A DNA stretch of 64,000 nt, taken from positions 124,001-188,000 of the forward strand of contig BEHX01000002.1 of NCBI GenBank assembly GCA_002898295.1, written 5' to 3'. Positions 44,155-53,399 of the stretch are shown one piece after another (within the stretch, counting starts at the first letter, position 1; each line of letters starts with the position of its first letter). The notes under the pieces were generated by a model. That model did no database searches and had not been told where the DNA came from. It was given only the letters and a program-made list of their open reading frames with translations. This DNA is from a bacterium HR21 (lineage in GTDB: Bacteria > Bacteroidota > Ignavibacteria > Kapaibacteriales > HRBIN21). Made by a program: the position numbers and the translations under genes.

Positions 44155-45455
44155 GGGGCATGAACATCGCGCTGGCACTCCTCGTGCCAGCTTCTGCTTT
44201 GGCTCAGCAGCTATGGCTTCTGCGGAGCATTCGGATGTACGGAGGCGAGGACGAGACAGCTCCCCCGGTTCTGCTCCTCTCCCCCGATGCCCAAACAGCG
44301 CCTTCTATGGGTTTTCCCTTCGTAACTCTGGAGGTGGATGTGGACGCTTCGGTTCCTCCTGCACTCATCGCCCGTTTCGTCCACTGCCGTCCGGATTGGA
44401 GCGAGAGTGGGAATGTCTTCCTCAGCTTTGGCGCCGCCGGCACGAGCCTCTTTTCCTGGGAACCAGCTCCTTCCGGCTCCCGCTTTTACAGCTATCGAGG
44501 GCGGCTGAGGATCCCGAACCCGCAGGTTACTATCCCGTACGCCGGGAACTGGAAGCTCCTGCTCTTCGAACGGGGCTCCGAGCAGCCCGTGGGGGAGGCG
44601 CGCTTTTTCGCCGTCCAACCTCAGGCGGTCTGCCGCGTTAGCGTCTATAGCGATCTCTACACTGCCCCGCCCGGTATCAGTCCGGCAGCTGTGACCGTTG
44701 AGGCAGTGGTTTCCGTGCCGCCCGAACTCAGCGCTGACCAGCGCCTGCAGACTGTCGTCTTCTACCGCCGCCACCGTTGGTTCGAACCCTACATTGTCAG
44801 CCACGACCGGACGTTGACAGCAGGGACCCAGCGGCTCTACCGCACCCCGTACCGAGGCAGCATCGCCGGAATGCTTCCCGGGGCGAAGCTCTTCCGGCTG
44901 GAACGCATCCCAGCACAGAACGAATACCGCGTCTTGGACCTGAGCAATCCCACCCAATTTCCGCCGTATACAAGCTCGCCCCTCCGCTTCCCTCTGGCAG
45001 ACCTGCGCCGCAATGGGAGTTTCTGGGATTGGGCAGACGACGGGGCGGCTGTAACCTCGCACCTTGCCCCGTATTTGCAGGATTACGTGCCCTTGGAATT
45101 CGTTCTGGATCCGGAAGGCGCTCCACCGCTTCCCTCCGAGGTCTTCGTTGTCGGCTCCTTCAATGGCTGGCGCGCCAGTGCAGAGTGGCGCCTCAGCTAT
45201 GACCCGGAAGAACGCCTCTACCGCCTCCGGCAGCTTGTCCGACGTGGACGTCACAACTACCTTTATGCCACCGGCTACCTCAACGCTGATACGGGCTCTG
45301 TGGAGTCCCTCTCCTTCGAGGAGTGGGAAGGCAACACCACGAGCACCCGGATCTCCTTCTGGGCGTTTGTCTACTACCGATTCCCCGACTTCGGCGGCTA
45401 CGATGCCCTCATTGCTGTTGGCGCCGCAAACCTCCAGGGACCTCTCCAGCCATAG
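44151..45455 (+). CDS. DUF5103 protein, type IX secretion system plug-like
   Basis: A 434-residue exported protein with a signal peptide (MNIALALLVPASALA, from ATG 44160; ATG 44151 overlaps the preceding stop). Family marks of DUF5103: PPVLLLSPDAQ at the front, ARFVHCRPDWSESGN (the HCxxDW motif), YSYRGRLRIPNPQVTIPYAG with NWKLLLFERG, and at the end EVFVVGSFNGWRASAEWRLS with RRGRHNYLYA. This fits the plug component that closes the large outer-membrane translocon SprA in type IX secretion. Its overlap with a type IX cargo operon supports that reading. The SprA gene is not in the window. Confidence 0.8.
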   Translation: MRGMNIALALLVPASALAQQLWLLRSIRMYGGEDETAPPVLLLSPDAQTAPSMGFPFVTLEVDVDASVPPALIARFVHCRPDWSESGNVFLSFGAAGTSLFSWEPAPSGSRFYSYRGRLRIPNPQVTIPYAGNWKLLLFERGSEQPVGEARFFAVQPQAVCRVSVYSDLYTAPPGISPAAVTVEAVVSVPPELSADQRLQTVVFYRRHRWFEPYIVSHDRTLTAGTQRLYRTPYRGSIAGMLPGAKLFRLERIPAQNEYRVLDLSNPTQFPPYTSSPLRFPLADLRRNGSFWDWADDGAAVTSHLAPYLQDYVPLEFVLDPEGAPPLPSEVFVVGSFNGWRASAEWRLSYDPEERLYRLRQLVRRGRHNYLYATGYLNADTGSVESLSFEEWEGNTTSTRISFWAFVYYRFPDFGGYDALIAVGAANLQGPLQP

Positions 45456-45461
45456 GCTCGC

Positions 45462-46787
45462 TTAGCGCTTGAGGGCATTGACCTCTGCCAGAATCTGGTC
45501 GCTCACCGTGACGATTCGCGCCGCCGCTTCAAATGCCCGCTGGGTGGCGATCAACTCTGTAAACTCCGTGGTCAGCTCTACGTTCGACTCCTCAACTGCC
45601 CCGCCGACGACAGAGGTGCCGGAGAAAAGCTCGCCGGCCGTGCCCAGAATCGGCGCACCACTGTTGGGCGAGACGGCGAAGAAGTTGTCTCCTTCCCGCA
45701 GCAGTCCTCCAGGATTGAGGAATTGAGCGAGGACGAGCTGCCCGAGCACTTCTGTGCGCCCGTTACTGAAGCTCCCCAGGAGCTTTCCTGTGGAATCGAT
45801 CCGCAGGTCTACAAGCTCGCCGATCCCATAGCCGTCCTGCTCAATGACAGCAAGCGTGCTGGGTCCGGACATCTGCGTTACACCCGAAAGGAGACTTCCC
45901 TGGGGGGCAAGCTCGATAGTCAGACTCTTGGCAGGGTCGAAGACCGGCGGATTGGCTCCCAGAGCTGTATTGAGCTCGGCACCAGGGATGACGACCGAGA
46001 GCGGTGATTCCAATGTGCCATCCCCTCGGAAACGTACGGGCGAGGAACCCGTTGGGAGAGTAAGGGGCTGCTCATCGAGAGTTGCTGTCAGCTCGAATTC
46101 ACCCGGCGTTGCCGTTTTCCGCAGCTCCAACCGCAAAACGTGTGTTACCCCACGGCTGTCGTAGATGAGGATGCTTGTTGCAATGCTTTCGCCGTCTGCC
46201 ATCTCCGCACTGAGATTGCCTGACAGCCGTACCCGTTCGGTCTGATGGGCAGGGGACCGAAGTCCTAGCGGAATCCGCAGTGCCCCTACTTGCCGGGAGA
46301 GCACTGTATTGCCCGAGCTATCCCGCACGGGGAGCCCATTGGCGTCGAGCACAATCCCATATCCCTGGACCAGTGCTCCGGTTGCTGTATCCACCAAGTT
46401 GCCCCGGGAATCCAGTGTGAAGGAGCCCGCTCGCGTGAAGAGCTGCCGCCCGTTGAGTTGTACGACGAAGAACCCATCCCCCCGCACGGCAACATCCAGC
46501 GGGCGATTCGTGGGAGTGATTGTCCCCTGCGCCATATCCGCCACAGTCGCTGCCAAGCGTACTCCCAAGCCAATCTGCAGGGGGTCTACTCCACCGATGT
46601 CTGCTCCGCTAACTATTGGGAGCGTCCCGATACCCAAGCGCTGGATAACGTTCTCCGCAAAGCGGGCTCGGCTGGCTTTGTACCCGATGGTGTTCACGTT
46701 GGCAACGTTGTTTGCAATGACGTCGAGCCGCCGCTGATGTGCCAGAAGCGACGTCTGCGCTGCCGTCAATGACCGTGAGAGTCCCAT
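45462..46787 (-). CDS. flgE: Flagellar hook protein FlgE
   Basis: A 441-residue axial protein. It begins MGLSRSLTAAQTSLLAHQRR, followed by NNVANVNTIGYKASRARF, the conserved N-terminal rod/hook helix, and ends TTEFTELIATQRAFEAAARI, VTVSDQILAEVNALKR, the partner helix. The middle domains (about 90-380) are beta-rich with GDGFFVVQLNGRQLFTRAGS. It is exported through the flagellar channel without a signal peptide. The gene order fliK-like, flgD, flgE supports hook rather than rod identity. It is convergent with the DUF5103 gene, 6 bases apart. Confidence 0.93.
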   Translation of the reverse strand: MGLSRSLTAAQTSLLAHQRRLDVIANNVANVNTIGYKASRARFAENVIQRLGIGTLPIVSGADIGGVDPLQIGLGVRLAATVADMAQGTITPTNRPLDVAVRGDGFFVVQLNGRQLFTRAGSFTLDSRGNLVDTATGALVQGYGIVLDANGLPVRDSSGNTVLSRQVGALRIPLGLRSPAHQTERVRLSGNLSAEMADGESIATSILIYDSRGVTHVLRLELRKTATPGEFELTATLDEQPLTLPTGSSPVRFRGDGTLESPLSVVIPGAELNTALGANPPVFDPAKSLTIELAPQGSLLSGVTQMSGPSTLAVIEQDGYGIGELVDLRIDSTGKLLGSFSNGRTEVLGQLVLAQFLNPGGLLREGDNFFAVSPNSGAPILGTAGELFSGTSVVGGAVEESNVELTTEFTELIATQRAFEAAARIVTVSDQILAEVNALKR

Positions 46788-46816
46788 TATGGCTCACCTC
46801 TCGAGTGTTGGACTTC

Positions 46817-47494
46817 CTACGGACGTTTCCGAATCTCCAAAAGCCCCGATAGGGGCACTTCCAGCTCACCGATGAGCATCATCGCCCCCTGAGCTGTGAA
46901 GCGCACTGCCTCCACGACGCCTTCCAGGAACGGGCGAACCTCCAGCTGTTGTCCTGCTGTCCCGACCGCGGTAATCCGGACGGTATACGTCCCTGCTGGG
47001 AGCCGCTCTCCCGATGCCGCTCGACCGTCCCACAGAATACGGTGGTCCCCCGGGGGAACGTTCCGGAACTCCCAGCTCCTGACCACGGCACCCGAGGAGG
47101 TACAGATTTCCACCCGTACGCTCTGCGCCTCTTCCGGGAGCTCGTATCCAAAGCGGACTTCCGTGGCATCTGGAGAGAGCCGAAGCAGGGAGCTTTCCGC
47201 TCGGACATATGCTCCTACAAGCGCTGGTGTAGCAGCATTGCCAACTGTCTCGGCAAGCCCGGAGAGCTGGCTGACCTGCAACTCCAGAAGTTGTCGGACG
47301 GAGAGCAGCTGCTCGAGCTGCGAGAAGATCGCCAGCTGTACGGCGAGCTCCTGACCTTCGTAAGGCTTCAACGGACTCTGCATGCGCAGCTGAGCAATGA
47401 GCAGCCGCAGGAAGTCTTCTTTCCCACTTCCTGCCCCGTTGGGGATGAGAAGCGTCCCTTGTGCTCCCGTCACAGCTCCAACGGCTTCTGCCAT
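46817..47494 (-). CDS. flgD: Flagellar hook capping protein FlgD
   Basis: A 225-residue protein starting at ATG 47494 (MAEAVGAVTGAQGTLLIPNG); the longer frame re-reads the upstream gene. The N-terminal scaffold signature KEDFLRLLIAQLRMQSPLKP, followed by QELAVQLAIFSQLEQLL, is diagnostic. The C-terminal part (about 100-220) has the FlgD Ig-like/tudor hybrid, with WEFRNVPPGDHRILWDGRAA and ERLPAGTYTVRITA. It caps the growing hook to allow FlgE to polymerise, and flgE follows 29 bases downstream. Confidence 0.93.
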   Translation of the reverse strand: MAEAVGAVTGAQGTLLIPNGAGSGKEDFLRLLIAQLRMQSPLKPYEGQELAVQLAIFSQLEQLLSVRQLLELQVSQLSGLAETVGNAATPALVGAYVRAESSLLRLSPDATEVRFGYELPEEAQSVRVEICTSSGAVVRSWEFRNVPPGDHRILWDGRAASGERLPAGTYTVRITAVGTAGQQLEVRPFLEGVVEAVRFTAQGAMMLIGELEVPLSGLLEIRKRP

Positions 47495-47507
47495 CGTATG
47501 CCCCTTT

Positions 47508-48479
47508 TTAGGATGTTGGACTCCGGAGGCGATGCCAGAGGAAGGAGCGAACGAAGTGCGCTCGCTCCCGGTAGAGCTCCTCTTCCTTTTGCCCTTGCGG
47601 GAAGCGGGAGAAGTCACCGAACGCGGCTGCCGACTCCGCAAAGCGCACGGTCACTTCTCCGAGCCGGAGTTGCCGCCCTGAGAGCATATGCTGGAGTCCA
47701 TCGGCAGCTGCCACAAACTGTCGCGCAAGCTCCGACGAGGGAGTCTCAGCGTGAACGAAAACCTGCTCTCCGTGGACAGCAACGAAGAGGAGAAGTTGCC
47801 CCCCGTGGGGAAGCTCCACGTGGAGCTGTGCCACTGTCGGTGGCTCCATTCGAGCTCCGGAGAGTGCTCGCCCCAGCGCCTGGACAAAAAGCACACGCAG
47901 CTGCTCCTGAAGCCCATTGACGGGGGAAGTTGAAGTCATCTCTACTCCGGCACGGTGGTGGATATTCCCCGCTGGCGATCCTACCAGCGCGGTAAGCTCA
48001 CCCCGGAAGAGGAGGTCTGAGAGCTGGGACGACAACTGCCGATCTGCTTCCCGCGCCGACTGCGACGGTGCAGGACCCAAGGAAGCCTCCGGCTCCAGCT
48101 TCAAAAATATTGGAGACACCGCCTCTTCCACCACTGCCGGAGTCCCTGGCAGACTTTCTATGCCCCGTTGGAGCACAGCACGGGACAGAAGTCCACTTGC
48201 TGGAGCCTCCCCACGCTCCAGAACCTGCAGACCAGAGCGGGACGCCGCGAGAGCGGGCTCACTCTCACCTGTTAGATCGGGGAGAGCCTCCGAGAAATGC
48301 GCACCTTGTCCGCATGCCTCTTGAGCCTCTGCCTGCGGTAGTGCAGGCACCCCTCCGAAGAATAGAGCAAGGAGCTCGGCAAAGACCTCTTCGCTGCCCT
48401 GCGCTGCGCAGCGTCGGGGGGAATCGGCTCCACACTGGGGCGATACACCCTCTACGGGAAAGGGAGCACCCGCGTGCAT
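47508..48479 (-). CDS. Probable flagellar hook-length control protein (FliK-like)
   Basis: A 323-residue protein placed 13 bases upstream of flgD. The first 220 residues are low in conserved features and rich in Ala, Pro, Glu and Ser, as in FliK rulers. The C-terminal part (about 222-295) has the FliK domain pattern: VAQLHVELPHGGQLLLFVAV, HGEQVFVHAETPSSELARQF, then LQHMLSGRQLRLGEVTVRF. FliK measures hook length and switches the export gate. The call rests on position plus this weak C-terminal similarity. Confidence 0.6.
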   Translation of the reverse strand: MHAGAPFPVEGVSPQCGADSPRRCAAQGSEEVFAELLALFFGGVPALPQAEAQEACGQGAHFSEALPDLTGESEPALAASRSGLQVLERGEAPASGLLSRAVLQRGIESLPGTPAVVEEAVSPIFLKLEPEASLGPAPSQSAREADRQLSSQLSDLLFRGELTALVGSPAGNIHHRAGVEMTSTSPVNGLQEQLRVLFVQALGRALSGARMEPPTVAQLHVELPHGGQLLLFVAVHGEQVFVHAETPSSELARQFVAAADGLQHMLSGRQLRLGEVTVRFAESAAAFGDFSRFPQGQKEEELYRERAHFVRSFLWHRLRSPTS

Positions 48480-48985: not shown

Positions 48986-49582
48986 TCAGAACTGGAGTGC
49001 CCGAAGAACCCCGTAGAACATGCGTTCGCGCTCCTGTTCGGTCGGCGGCTCCATCGCCCGCAGCGAGAGCGGAAAGAGCGCGAGCTCATAGACCGTTCCG
49101 AGCGAAGAGACGAAAACCGCCACCTGCACAGTCCGCCCGCCATCTGAAAAATGGTAGACCACGAACGACTTCATCCCCACCCGCACAACGTTGAAGTCGC
49201 TGCTGAGCCGGAGAGCCCCCGCTGACCGCGCCTGGTGCCGAGCAAAGCTCTGCCGAGCAAGCTCAAGCAGGTCGTACTGCCCCGCTGTATCCGCCGGCGC
49301 ACGACGGAAGAGAACCACCGTCAGAGCCAGAGTGTACTCAGGATTGACTCCCACGACAACTGTCCCTGCCGGCGCTCGTTCCCCGAGATCCAGCGCGAAC
49401 CACCCACGGGGCAGGAAGATCACCAGATCCCCTGCCGGCGAGAAGACTGGGTTCTCCGCAAGGAGGATCCCAGGCTCTGGAGTGAGCTCTGTCACGACAA
49501 CTCCCGCCTGCTCCGACATGTGCCAGAAGGCACAGCCAGAGGCTGCTAACCATGCCCCTGTGACGAGCACCCACTCCCTCAT
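48986..49582 (-). CDS. Small lipoprotein of unknown function
   Basis: A 198-residue protein with a lipobox (VTGAWLAASGC, lipid-modified Cys17). The rest is predicted beta-rich: FSPAGDLVIFLPRGWFALDL, NPEYTLALTVVLFRRAP, FVVYHFSDGGRTVQVAVFVS. This resembles the PsbP/DUF1795 type of small periplasmic protein, but no diagnostic residues confirm it. Its ATG overlaps the DUF1684 gene stop by four bases, and both precede the flagellar genes. Confidence 0.65.
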   Translation of the reverse strand: MREWVLVTGAWLAASGCAFWHMSEQAGVVVTELTPEPGILLAENPVFSPAGDLVIFLPRGWFALDLGERAPAGTVVVGVNPEYTLALTVVLFRRAPADTAGQYDLLELARQSFARHQARSAGALRLSSDFNVVRVGMKSFVVYHFSDGGRTVQVAVFVSSLGTVYELALFPLSLRAMEPPTEQERERMFYGVLRALQF

Positions 49583-50211
49583 CTCTGCTCCCTAGGCGCT
49601 TTCTCACCCGCCCGTATGGGAATCGGAAGCACGTTCTCCGGTGGCACTACGGGACAGGCGTAGTCAGGGTTATACGCACAGTACGGATTGTACGCTCGGT
49701 TGAAGTCCAGCCAGTACTCTTCCGCCTCGGGCTGCTCTTCTATCTCCAGATACCGCCCCCCAGCGTAGGTCTCCGTTCCCGTGGTCGCATCCTTGAACGG
49801 AACGAAGAGCAGGTAAGGGTATACCCCGAGCGGCTTGTATACTACGAGCCGAAAAACCGTATCCGCCCATCCGATGTGAAAGACCCCATAGCGCACCATT
49901 TGATGTCGGTAGCCAGGCTTCGTCGAGGGCAGCTCCACTGTATCCTGCTGCGGAAACACCTCCAGCACCGCTGGAAGCACATACTCCCGGCTCGGAGGAT
50001 AGTAGCGCAACCCGGAGAATCGCCCTCGTCCCTCTGGCGGAATGGGAGACTCAGGAGAAGCTCGGAATAGGCTGTCTTTCAGCCGCCGTTCAGCTAGCAA
50101 AGCCAGGGAATCGAACTCCACTTCCTCTCCTTCCCTCCCCTGCTCGCTCCCACACCCACCGGAGAACAACACCACCAGGAGGCACCACGATATCCACAAC
50201 GTTTTCCCCAT
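49579..50211 (-). CDS. DUF1684 lipoprotein
   Basis: A 210-residue lipoprotein. ATG 50211 opens the signal (MGKTLWISWCLLVVLFSGGC, Cys20); the longer frame from 50355 crosses the DnaA-box cluster. The DUF1684 core is clear: LVVYKPLGVYPYLLFVPFKD, TGTETYAGGRYLEIEEQ, WLDFNRAYNPYCAYNPDYAC, PPENVLPIPIRAGEK. The family is widespread in Bacteroidota and Actinobacteria, and its biochemical role is not established. It is the first gene of the operon that ends in flgE. Confidence 0.85.
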   Translation of the reverse strand: MGKTLWISWCLLVVLFSGGCGSEQGREGEEVEFDSLALLAERRLKDSLFRASPESPIPPEGRGRFSGLRYYPPSREYVLPAVLEVFPQQDTVELPSTKPGYRHQMVRYGVFHIGWADTVFRLVVYKPLGVYPYLLFVPFKDATTGTETYAGGRYLEIEEQPEAEEYWLDFNRAYNPYCAYNPDYACPVVPPENVLPIPIRAGEKAPREQR

Positions 50212-50401
50212 TTCCACAGCCTCTATCCACAGCACTGTGGATAACCACTGCGTTGTCCACACTCCTGAGCCCCTTCCCACCGTGCCATCGCTTTTCCACC
50301 AGGGAAATCCACACCAGCGAGCGGTCTTCCCACACCCGGAAGAATCCTTCTGCATCTAAGTACTCCAGGCTTGCCCGGAGCGAATTTTCCACATTTCCAC
50401 A
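50190..50401. other. Candidate replication origin (oriC): cluster of DnaA-box-like nonamers
   Basis: Ten nonamers resembling the DnaA box TTATCCACA lie within 212 bases. Plus strand: ATATCCACA 50190, ATTTCCACA 50210, CTATCCACA 50223, TTGTCCACA 50253, TTTTCCACC 50292, AAATCCACA 50305, CTTCCCACA 50326, TTTTCCACA 50385 and ATTTCCACA 50393. Minus strand: a perfect TTATCCACA at 50236-50244. The cluster fills the gap between a minus-strand operon and serS. Plus-strand genes to the left (clpP, metK, the SBBP protein) tend to be C-rich and those to the right (pyk, gcvPA, ROK) G-rich. No dnaA or dnaN is adjacent, and no long AT-rich stretch is obvious. Confidence 0.6.
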
Positions 50402-50430
50402 CTCTCACTACCACCACCTCTCCTGAGGGA

Positions 50431-51702
50431 CTACTCCGCTGTGATGATGTCGAAACCACAGTAGGGACGGAGAGCTTCGGGAACAACCACGACACCTTCG
50501 GGTGTCTGGTACTGTTCCAAGAGAGCAGCCATAAGCCGGGAAGTAGCCAGCCCGCTCCCGTTGAGTGTATGGACAAACTCCGGTCTGGCACCAGGCTGAG
50601 GACGGTACCGGATGTTCGCCCGCCGTGCTTGGAAATCCTCGAAGTTTGAGCAGCTGGAGGCTTCCAGCCACCGCTGCTGGCATGGTGACCAGACCTCGAT
50701 GTCGTATGTCTTCGCACTAGCAAAGCCGAGATCACCGGCGCAGAGGAGAACAACCCGGTAGACCACTCCGAGTGCTTGGAGCACTGCCTCAACCTCGGTG
50801 ACAAGCCTCTCTAGCTCGTCGTAGGATTCCTCAGGACGGCTGAGGATAACAAGCTCGACCTTGTTGAACTGGTGCATACGCACGAGCCCCCGGGTCTCGC
50901 GCCCGTAGCTTCCTGCCTCCCGCCGGAAGCAAGCGGAGTAGCCGCAGAGCTTGATAGGGAGCAAATCTGCTGGGAGGATTTCATCGGCAAAGTAGTTGGT
51001 CAGCGGGACTTCAGCGGTGGGAATAAGGTAGAGCTCATCCTGCTCGATGTAGTACATGTCCTCCCGCAGCTTTGGGAGCTGTCCGGTTCCCTCCATCGCT
51101 TTGGGCGACACTAGGAAGGGGGGGAAGATCTCCCGATAGCCGTGGAAGCGCACGTGGAAGTCCAGCATGAAATTGATGAGTGCCCGCTCCAGTTGGGCTC
51201 CCTTGCCGGTGTAGAAGACAAATCCGCTGCCGCTGACCTTTGCTGCTCGGGGAAAATCCAGAATGCCCAGGGAGCGGGCGATTTCCAGGTGATCTTTCCG
51301 GAACTCCTGCGGCTGCGGCTTACCCCAGCGCCGGACTTCGCGATTCTCAGCCGCGGTCGCTCCATCGGGAACGCTGGGATGAGGTACGTTCGGCAGCAGC
51401 AGGAGGAGCTCTCGGAGCCGCTGTTCGACCTGCTGGAGCTCATCTTCCAGGCTCCGGACGTGCTCGGCGATGGTACGCAGCTGGGCTAGGAGCTCTTCGG
51501 GGTGTTCGCCCCGGCGCTTGGCTGCGGCAACTTGTTCTTGTGCTGTCTTGCGCTCGTGTTGGAGCTGGTCAAGGGTACGGATAATCTGACGCCGTTTGGC
51601 ATCCAGTTCGAGGATCGGGGCAATGTCGATGGAATCGCCGCGGCGGCGGAGCTGCGCGGCAATCTCAGTGCTTTGCTCCCGAATTCGCTGGAGGCTCAGC
51701 AT
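50431..51702 (-). CDS. serS: Seryl-tRNA synthetase
   Basis: A 423-residue class II synthetase charging tRNA-Ser. The N-terminal long coiled-coil arm (about 30-100, LDQLQHERKTAQEQVAAAKR) contacts the long variable arm of tRNA-Ser. The catalytic domain has EREIFPPFLVSPKAMEGTGQ-like motif 1 (here YREIFPPFLVS), motif 2 CFRREAGSYGRETRGLVRMH and motif 3 TLNGSGLATSRLMAALLEQY. Length and order are complete. It starts immediately to the right of the putative origin, reading toward it. Confidence 0.96.
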   Translation of the reverse strand: MLSLQRIREQSTEIAAQLRRRGDSIDIAPILELDAKRRQIIRTLDQLQHERKTAQEQVAAAKRRGEHPEELLAQLRTIAEHVRSLEDELQQVEQRLRELLLLLPNVPHPSVPDGATAAENREVRRWGKPQPQEFRKDHLEIARSLGILDFPRAAKVSGSGFVFYTGKGAQLERALINFMLDFHVRFHGYREIFPPFLVSPKAMEGTGQLPKLREDMYYIEQDELYLIPTAEVPLTNYFADEILPADLLPIKLCGYSACFRREAGSYGRETRGLVRMHQFNKVELVILSRPEESYDELERLVTEVEAVLQALGVVYRVVLLCAGDLGFASAKTYDIEVWSPCQQRWLEASSCSNFEDFQARRANIRYRPQPGARPEFVHTLNGSGLATSRLMAALLEQYQTPEGVVVVPEALRPYCGFDIITAE

Positions 51703-51810: not shown

Positions 51811-51923
51811 TCCGGCAGTGCCAGAGAGCTGTGAACTATGAAGCGGTTCTTCAGGAGCATCCAGGGACGGGGTCCCGGTGATGGCAGAAGTGTCCCGGGA
51901 AACTGATCCGGAGGATGTGCTCT

Positions 51924-53399
51924 ATGAATGCCCCAGTACAGCTCCGCTTAGTATACCACCGCACGAAGATCCTCTGCACTGTTGGTCCTGCTGTTGCATC
52001 GCCGGAGAAGCTCTATCAGCTTCTGACAGCTGGAGCTGACGGCTTCCGGCTCAACTTCTCGCATGGTTCCGAGGAGTCCCACGCTGCCTATGTCCGGTGG
52101 ATTCGGGAGGCAGAGCAGCGTGTCGGGCGGTTTGTCCCGATTATGGTGGACCTGCCCGGACCGAAGCTGCGCGTTGCCACTCTTCCCCAGGGGGCGCTGG
52201 AGCTCCGGGCGGGGGAAGAAGTGGTGCTGGCAGACGTATCCCAGGGAGAGGGTATTACTCCTGGGCGGGGCGAGCTGAGTGTTATCCCCGTGGAGTACCC
52301 CACGATTGCCCGGGATCTCAAAGTTGGGGATTCCATCCTGCTCGATGATGGCAAGCTCCGGCTGAAGGTGACGGGGAAGCGGGGAAAGGGAGTCCGCGCC
52401 ATTGTCGTTGCAGGGGGGATTTTGCAGTCACGGAAAGGCATCAATGTCCCAGGGGTGCAGATTTCCCTGCCGAGCATTACGGAGCGGGATCGCCGGGGGA
52501 TTGAGTTCGCTGCCCGGTATGCCTGCGACTACGTTGCCGTCTCCTTTGTGCGCTCTGCTGAGGACGTGCGTGCTGTGCGGAGGTTACTGCAGGAGACTGG
52601 TAGTCTCGCGTGGGTAATCGCAAAGATTGAGAAGCCTGAAGCACTGGCTGACATTGAGCGGATCCTGCAAGCTGCCGATGGAATCATGATTGCCCGGGGA
52701 GATCTCGGAGTGGAAATCCCCGCCGTTCAAGTCCCGCTGGTCCAAAAACAGCTCATCCAGCTTGCTAACCAGCGAGCGAAGCTGGTCATCACGGCGACGC
52801 AGATGCTCGAGAGCATGGTCCAGAACCCGATGCCGACCCGGGCAGAGGCAAGCGACGTTGCAAACGCCGTGCTCGATGGGACCGACGTCGTCATGCTCAG
52901 TTCCGAGACGTCCGTGGGGGCTTATCCCGTAGAGGCGGTCATGTACATGCGCTCGATTTGCCAGGAAGCTGAGCGCGCACTGACCGTCCACCCGGAAGTG
53001 GTCCATACTCTGGTGGGCAAAGGGGAACGACCAGAACGGCTCACCACGGATGCCATTGCGGCTGCAGCGGCAGCTATCGCCGCGGAAGGACACGTCCAGG
53101 GCATTGTCTCGCTGACGCTCTCGGGGGAAACTGTCCGCCTCATCTCGAAGCGGCGCCCCCCGGTGCCGATCCTAGCAGTGACGCAGAACCCAATGGTTGC
53201 CCGGAATGTCGGGCTGCTGTGGGGAACAACAGGGATGCTCCTCGAGCGGGTTGGCTCTACGGACGAGACTATTGAGGAAGTCAAGCAACTGCTCCGTCAG
53301 CAAGGGTACTTCATGCCCGGGGAACGGATCGTCATTACCATCGGGCGTCCCTTGGTGGCGCGTTCCCGGACGAACATGCTCTCGATTGAGACCATATGA
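51924..53399 (+). CDS. pyk: Pyruvate kinase
   Basis: A 491-residue glycolytic enzyme converting phosphoenolpyruvate and ADP to pyruvate and ATP. ATG 51924 lies 9 bases after GGAGG (51910-51914); the in-frame ATG 51915 would touch that site. Motifs: RTKILCTVGPAVASPEKLYQ, DGFRLNFSHGSEESH, VMVDLPGPKLRVAT, the active site IAKIEKPEALADIERIL, GIMIARGDLGVEIP, and TQMLESMVQNPMPTRAEASD with NAVLDGTDVVMLSSETSVGA (usually SGETA). The C-terminal domain (about 360-490) is present. The coding strand is conspicuously G-rich. Confidence 0.96.
   Translation: MNAPVQLRLVYHRTKILCTVGPAVASPEKLYQLLTAGADGFRLNFSHGSEESHAAYVRWIREAEQRVGRFVPIMVDLPGPKLRVATLPQGALELRAGEEVVLADVSQGEGITPGRGELSVIPVEYPTIARDLKVGDSILLDDGKLRLKVTGKRGKGVRAIVVAGGILQSRKGINVPGVQISLPSITERDRRGIEFAARYACDYVAVSFVRSAEDVRAVRRLLQETGSLAWVIAKIEKPEALADIERILQAADGIMIARGDLGVEIPAVQVPLVQKQLIQLANQRAKLVITATQMLESMVQNPMPTRAEASDVANAVLDGTDVVMLSSETSVGAYPVEAVMYMRSICQEAERALTVHPEVVHTLVGKGERPERLTTDAIAAAAAAIAAEGHVQGIVSLTLSGETVRLISKRRPPVPILAVTQNPMVARNVGLLWGTTGMLLERVGSTDETIEEVKQLLRQQGYFMPGERIVITIGRPLVARSRTNMLSIETI

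Follow-up and report, generated by a model that had tools for sequence, protein, structure and literature searches.

A probable DnaA-dependent chromosomal replication origin beside serS and away from dnaA in the uncultured bacterium HR21

The stretch of DNA analyzed here (the window, 64,000 nucleotides) corresponds to positions 124001-188000 of contig C2 in a draft genome of 17 contigs that is 95% complete. A gene for seryl-tRNA synthetase (serS) and a gene for a DUF1684 lipoprotein, both on the minus strand, face a short spacer in and around which nonamers resembling the DnaA box TTATCCACA are crowded. The features of this locus are listed below in window coordinates, with the source of each assignment in parentheses.

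49579..50211, minus strand: DUF1684 lipoprotein gene (Pfam; 210-residue counterpart in G004; lipobox LFSGGC)
50190..50401, unstranded: probable oriC core with ten DnaA boxes (box scans of window and genome; simulations)
50190, plus strand: DnaA box ATATCCACA (box scan)
50202, plus strand: DnaA box TTTTCCCCA (box scan)
50202..50218, plus strand: imperfect second copy of the tandem, TTTTCCCCATTTCCACA (box scan; order-wide pattern search)
50210, plus strand: DnaA box ATTTCCACA (box scan)
50223, plus strand: DnaA box CTATCCACA (box scan)
50223..50244, unstranded: inverted pair CTATCCACA-gcac-TGTGGATAA, with a similar pair at a like place in congeners (box scan; alignment)
50236, minus strand: DnaA box TTATCCACA, the sole perfect copy in the window (box scan)
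50253..50261, plus strand: DnaA box TTGTCCACA (box scan)
50292, plus strand: DnaA box TTTTCCACC (box scan)
50305..50313, plus strand: DnaA box AAATCCACA, TCCACA core kept in 5/5 aligned species (box scan; alignment)
50385, plus strand: DnaA box TTTTCCACA (box scan)
50385..50401, plus strand: tandem of two overlapping DnaA boxes, TTTTCCACATTTCCACA (alignment; order-wide pattern search)
50393, plus strand: DnaA box ATTTCCACA, second occurrence (box scan)
50402..50434, unstranded: candidate unwinding site, a pyrimidine-rich stretch after the tandem (stability scan; function inferred)
50431..51702, minus strand: serS, seryl-tRNA synthetase, 3' end towards the probable origin, containing the skew minimum at 50924 (Pfam; skew)
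51915..53399, plus strand: pyruvate kinase gene, located past serS in those members of the genus that were tested (Pfam)

The sequence places the start of the DUF1684 lipoprotein gene most likely at position 50211 on the minus strand. An alternative start at 50355, which gives the longest open reading frame, would run across the boxes. With the start at 50211 the product carries a lipoprotein signal with the lipobox LFSGGC, and a DUF1684 counterpart of 210 amino acids beside a like box cluster in G004 agrees with this start. The first codons are overlapped by the boxes at 50190 and 50202 and by the first two bases of the box at 50210; with DnaA boxes across its start codon, the gene could be controlled by DnaA. 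The neighbor on this side varies within the genus: it is a DUF1684 gene in the window's genome (G000) and in G004, and in G001 and G003 it belongs to no known family. Flagellar genes are found directly to the left (45462-48479), encoding a FlgE-like hook protein and a weak FliK-like match. An Rfam scan of 48-53 kb gave no matches.

The box scan of the 64-kb window recovered 10 nonamers within two mismatches of TTATCCACA at 50190-50401. Five of these are within one mismatch, including the single perfect copy, which lies on the minus strand at 50236, and 9/10 point the same way. The original prediction had described ten DnaA-box-like nonamers, one of them perfect, in 212 bases of spacer. All of the boxes were recovered as described, but the left end of the cluster overlaps the lipoprotein gene, and the spacer proper extends over approximately 50212-50430. 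Chance was modeled by simulating the window 200 times with a second-order Markov model and scoring the densest 212-base stretch of each copy. The maximum in these copies was 2 boxes at up to one mismatch and 6 at up to two, compared with 5 and 10 observed. The Poisson E values for the cluster across the genome are approximately 7e-7 and 4e-8, respectively. The same segment is the densest box cluster of the 1,834,294-base draft, with 10 boxes at up to two mismatches and 5 at up to one; the runner-up has 6 and 2.

Cumulative GC skew was computed for every contig of the draft. In 2-kb bins, all but one of those to the left of 50 kb are C-rich, and all of those to the right of 52 kb are G-rich. 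The switch from C to G excess, predicted earlier from base counts made by hand, is therefore real, and the counts themselves were correct save one (at 52321 the number of C is 13, not 12). The cumulative minimum falls within serS at window position 50924 (C2:174924), the last box being 0.5 kb away, and is the same for the window alone and for the whole contig; the keto-skew minimum is at 50932. A minimum had been expected at about 50.3 kb, and the only V-shaped curve in the genome (1/17 contigs) is the one on C2. Its position off the boxes and 0.5 kb inside serS is a point against placing the origin on the boxes, although the minus-strand gene to the right of the origin may shift the minimum into serS.

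A clear inverted V is found on C1 only, at 204730. The skew of the remaining longer contigs is essentially monotone, and C17 (6 kb) is too short to judge. The orientation of a contig is irrelevant here since a V remains a V after reverse complementation. One V and one inverted V thus indicate one origin and one terminus within the assembled sequence, and the position near 204.7 kb on C1 is the putative terminus. No dif site was recognized at this position: the matches to the E. coli dif and to looser patterns were weak and scattered. The replichores cannot be joined because the draft is 95% complete and in 17 contigs.

The sole dnaA gene of the genome is located at C12:30514, between tatC and a thioredoxin-TPR gene, on a contig with monotone skew. 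No box cluster was found near dnaA in this genome or in 14 relatives. A stronger cluster beside dnaA or at another locus, proposed as a check on the original prediction, was likewise not found, the serS cluster being the densest in the genome. The DnaA protein is full length, with its N, AAA+ and C domains, and contains GGRDHTT, the box-reading signature. From its sequence, the encoded DnaA is predicted to be able to read TTATCCACA.

Five further species of the genus were available, of which the four with an intact serS (G001, G002, G003 and G004) were used to compare clusters and skew. A box cluster lies just past the 3' end of serS in all four, and the skew minima are all within serS (at 44840 in G001, 107072 in G002, 13815 in G003 and 67597 in G004). 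In the alignment the flanks have diverged, but all 16 bases of the tandem TTTCCACATTTCCACA are identical across five species of the genus. The inverted pair and another box with TCCACA recur at like places in the congeners. The closest named relative by serS is Candidatus Kapaibacterium (61%).

Perfect parS sites occur only twice in the genome, at C2:115332-115347 and C2:117238-117253. They lie at both ends of mnmG, next to mnmE and 57-59 kb to the left of the box cluster; a ParB-type gene is found on another contig (C3:133114). Origin-proximal parS sites are the rule in bacteria. The segregation center of the chromosome seems to be at mnmG, 57-59 kb from the origin.

We conclude with high confidence that this bacterium has a single chromosomal oriC, formed by the segment 50190-50401 and the adjoining bases as far as the stop codon of serS. 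The assignment is based on the box cluster, its uniqueness, the switch in skew, the conservation in the genus and a dnaA gene that has no cluster, each of them observed directly. The prediction of a chromosomal origin beside serS is accordingly borne out by the skew minimum, the densest cluster, four congeners and the two parS sites. The origin is almost certainly of the ordinary DnaA-dependent type, a known kind found here in an uncultured lineage, and is located far from dnaA beside a tRNA-synthetase gene.

In other bacteria, DnaA-box clusters are also used for titration and for transcription control, and three of the boxes here reach into the first codons of the lipoprotein gene. The cluster could therefore be a datA-like titration site, or DnaA bound there could control the promoter of the DUF1684 gene, with the true origin elsewhere. 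This explanation is considered improbable: the genome's sole skew minimum falls at the cluster, a coincidence seen in five species, G001 and G003 keep the cluster though the gene on the lipoprotein side has no DUF1684 match, and the genome is without another cluster fit to be an origin. Even less probable is that the nonamers became crowded by chance, the spacer being rich in C and in ACA. When two mismatches are allowed, such sites do occur at approximately 1.6 per kb genome-wide, but no simulated copy exceeded 6 boxes against the 10 observed, the boxes are kept in congeners amid drifting flanks, and the cluster coincides with the skew minimum.

The origin might instead be at mnmG with its parS sites or at dnaA, the switch in skew at serS having been produced by a recent inversion. 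The mnmG gene is a classical origin neighbor and carries both perfect parS sites here. In Melioribacter roseus, a member of the Ignavibacteria, oriC is found in 303 bp between dnaA and dnaN (PMC3534657). The skew of the dnaA contig is monotone, however, and dnaA lacks a box cluster in all 15 genomes; at mnmG there is no cluster either, and the skew passes without a turn. An inversion would be expected to leave additional turns, and a like switch is present in four congeners. These placements are extremely unlikely, and the segment beside serS is retained as the origin.

The least stable 50 bases of the neighborhood begin at the tandem, according to a stability scan of the window's species. In the congeners a like unstable stretch is found no more than 25 bases from the tandem and ranks first or second. 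The published criterion for DnaA-trios is at least three consecutive NAN (3'-5') trios at 0-16 bp from a box (PMC8287927). By this criterion, no DnaA-trios were found on either strand in the window's species; trios after the tandem are present in the congeners G003 and G005. The AT content at the candidate stretch is 44-53% compared with a mean of 39%, without a marked AT peak. Since trios of this kind are missing and the stretch is not AT-rich, we only infer that opening takes place at 50402-50434. Tandem DnaA boxes by the opening site, a feature of the basal unwinding system, are found at 50385-50401, adjoining the presumed opening site.

In the proposed mechanism, DnaA encoded on another contig would bind the box cluster. 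The end pair at 50385/50393, which points to serS, would most likely load a DnaA filament onto one strand of approximately 50402-50434. This stretch would then open and take two helicases, and the forks would run both ways to the putative terminus on C1 near 204.7 kb. A cluster whose end pair would load DnaA towards serS is the best-supported model, in analogy to the basal unwinding system (PMC8287927).

The 16-base tandem TTTCCACATTTCCACA was found with at most one mismatch in 35/61 genomes of the order; a reversed control pattern was found in 3/61. Box clusters bearing the tandem are located elsewhere in other families: beside genes for an enoyl-CoA hydratase and rmlD in f4, alaS in f3, anmK and thiN in f9, and an M20 peptidase gene in f7. 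These clusters (L223-L231, L237 and L241-L244) are probable origins with changed neighbors. Family f4 includes a complete genome, G008, with its cluster at 126.3 kb. The skew of this genome is weak and turns from minus to plus somewhere from approximately 1.97 Mb, through the zero point, to 0.14 Mb, a range that contains the cluster and has a local minimum at 139.9 kb. The opposite turn falls between 1.2 and 1.4 Mb. The weak skew of G008 fits an origin at the 126-kb cluster.

Of the six loci of family f2 that were examined, five have a box cluster 3' of serS with 4-7 DnaA-trio triplets behind it. The boxes and trios of this family are textbook-like just past serS (L047:1277-1320, L053:1355-1395, L049 and L057), for example TCATCCACACTATCCACAGGCTTATTACTCTTACTGTTCTTT. 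Unlike the other families, f5 (G009, G018 and G025) carries TTTCCACATTTCCACA in several copies in each genome, spread over different contigs and with two or three exact; these copies could represent repeats, sites for titration or more than one origin-like cluster. On the question of common descent of the serS location in f1 and f2, a tree of SerS placed f2 with f4 at 93/93 and left f1 unplaced. The simplest reading of these sequences, offered as a lead, would be that the origin departed from dnaA on the lineage leading to this order and later came to lie beside different genes. Tentatively, and at somewhat less than even confidence, the origin may be a movable module of the tandem and satellite boxes, set by family beside serS, rmlD/enoyl-CoA hydratase, alaS, anmK/thiN or M20 peptidase genes; in the window's GC-rich genus such a module would open with neither canonical DnaA-trios nor an AT-rich element. 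A literature search found no paper on a Kapabacteria origin.

Among known systems, the oriC of Bacillus subtilis (DnaA-boxes 6/7 and DnaA-trios) resembles the origin beside serS in having a tandem box pair at one end of the cluster; the boxes of the cluster, all but one pointing the same way, are likewise followed by the least stable stretch. In family f2 of the order, the pair beside serS is followed by 4-7 trio triplets. The window's species differs from B. subtilis in that it has no run of three trios, the stretch is not AT-rich and the origin is away from dnaA. The Melioribacter roseus oriC is also a single DnaA-box origin at a GC-skew switch, in the common Bacteroidota/Chlorobiota branch, whereas the origin in the window lies between serS and a lipoprotein gene and the boxless dnaA is on another contig. 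The E. coli oriC (mnmG/gidA-mioC) is likewise away from dnaA and contains several DnaA boxes. Unlike in E. coli, mnmG in the window's genome is 57 kb off with its parS sites, and no AT-rich 13-mer architecture was found.

The change in location of the origin is moderately interesting within a known kind. Fixing the origin and replichores of an uncultured lineage allows peak-to-trough estimates of growth rates from metagenome coverage. The change of neighbors between families, with the tandem kept, provides a natural series for how origins move and which of their elements are indispensable.
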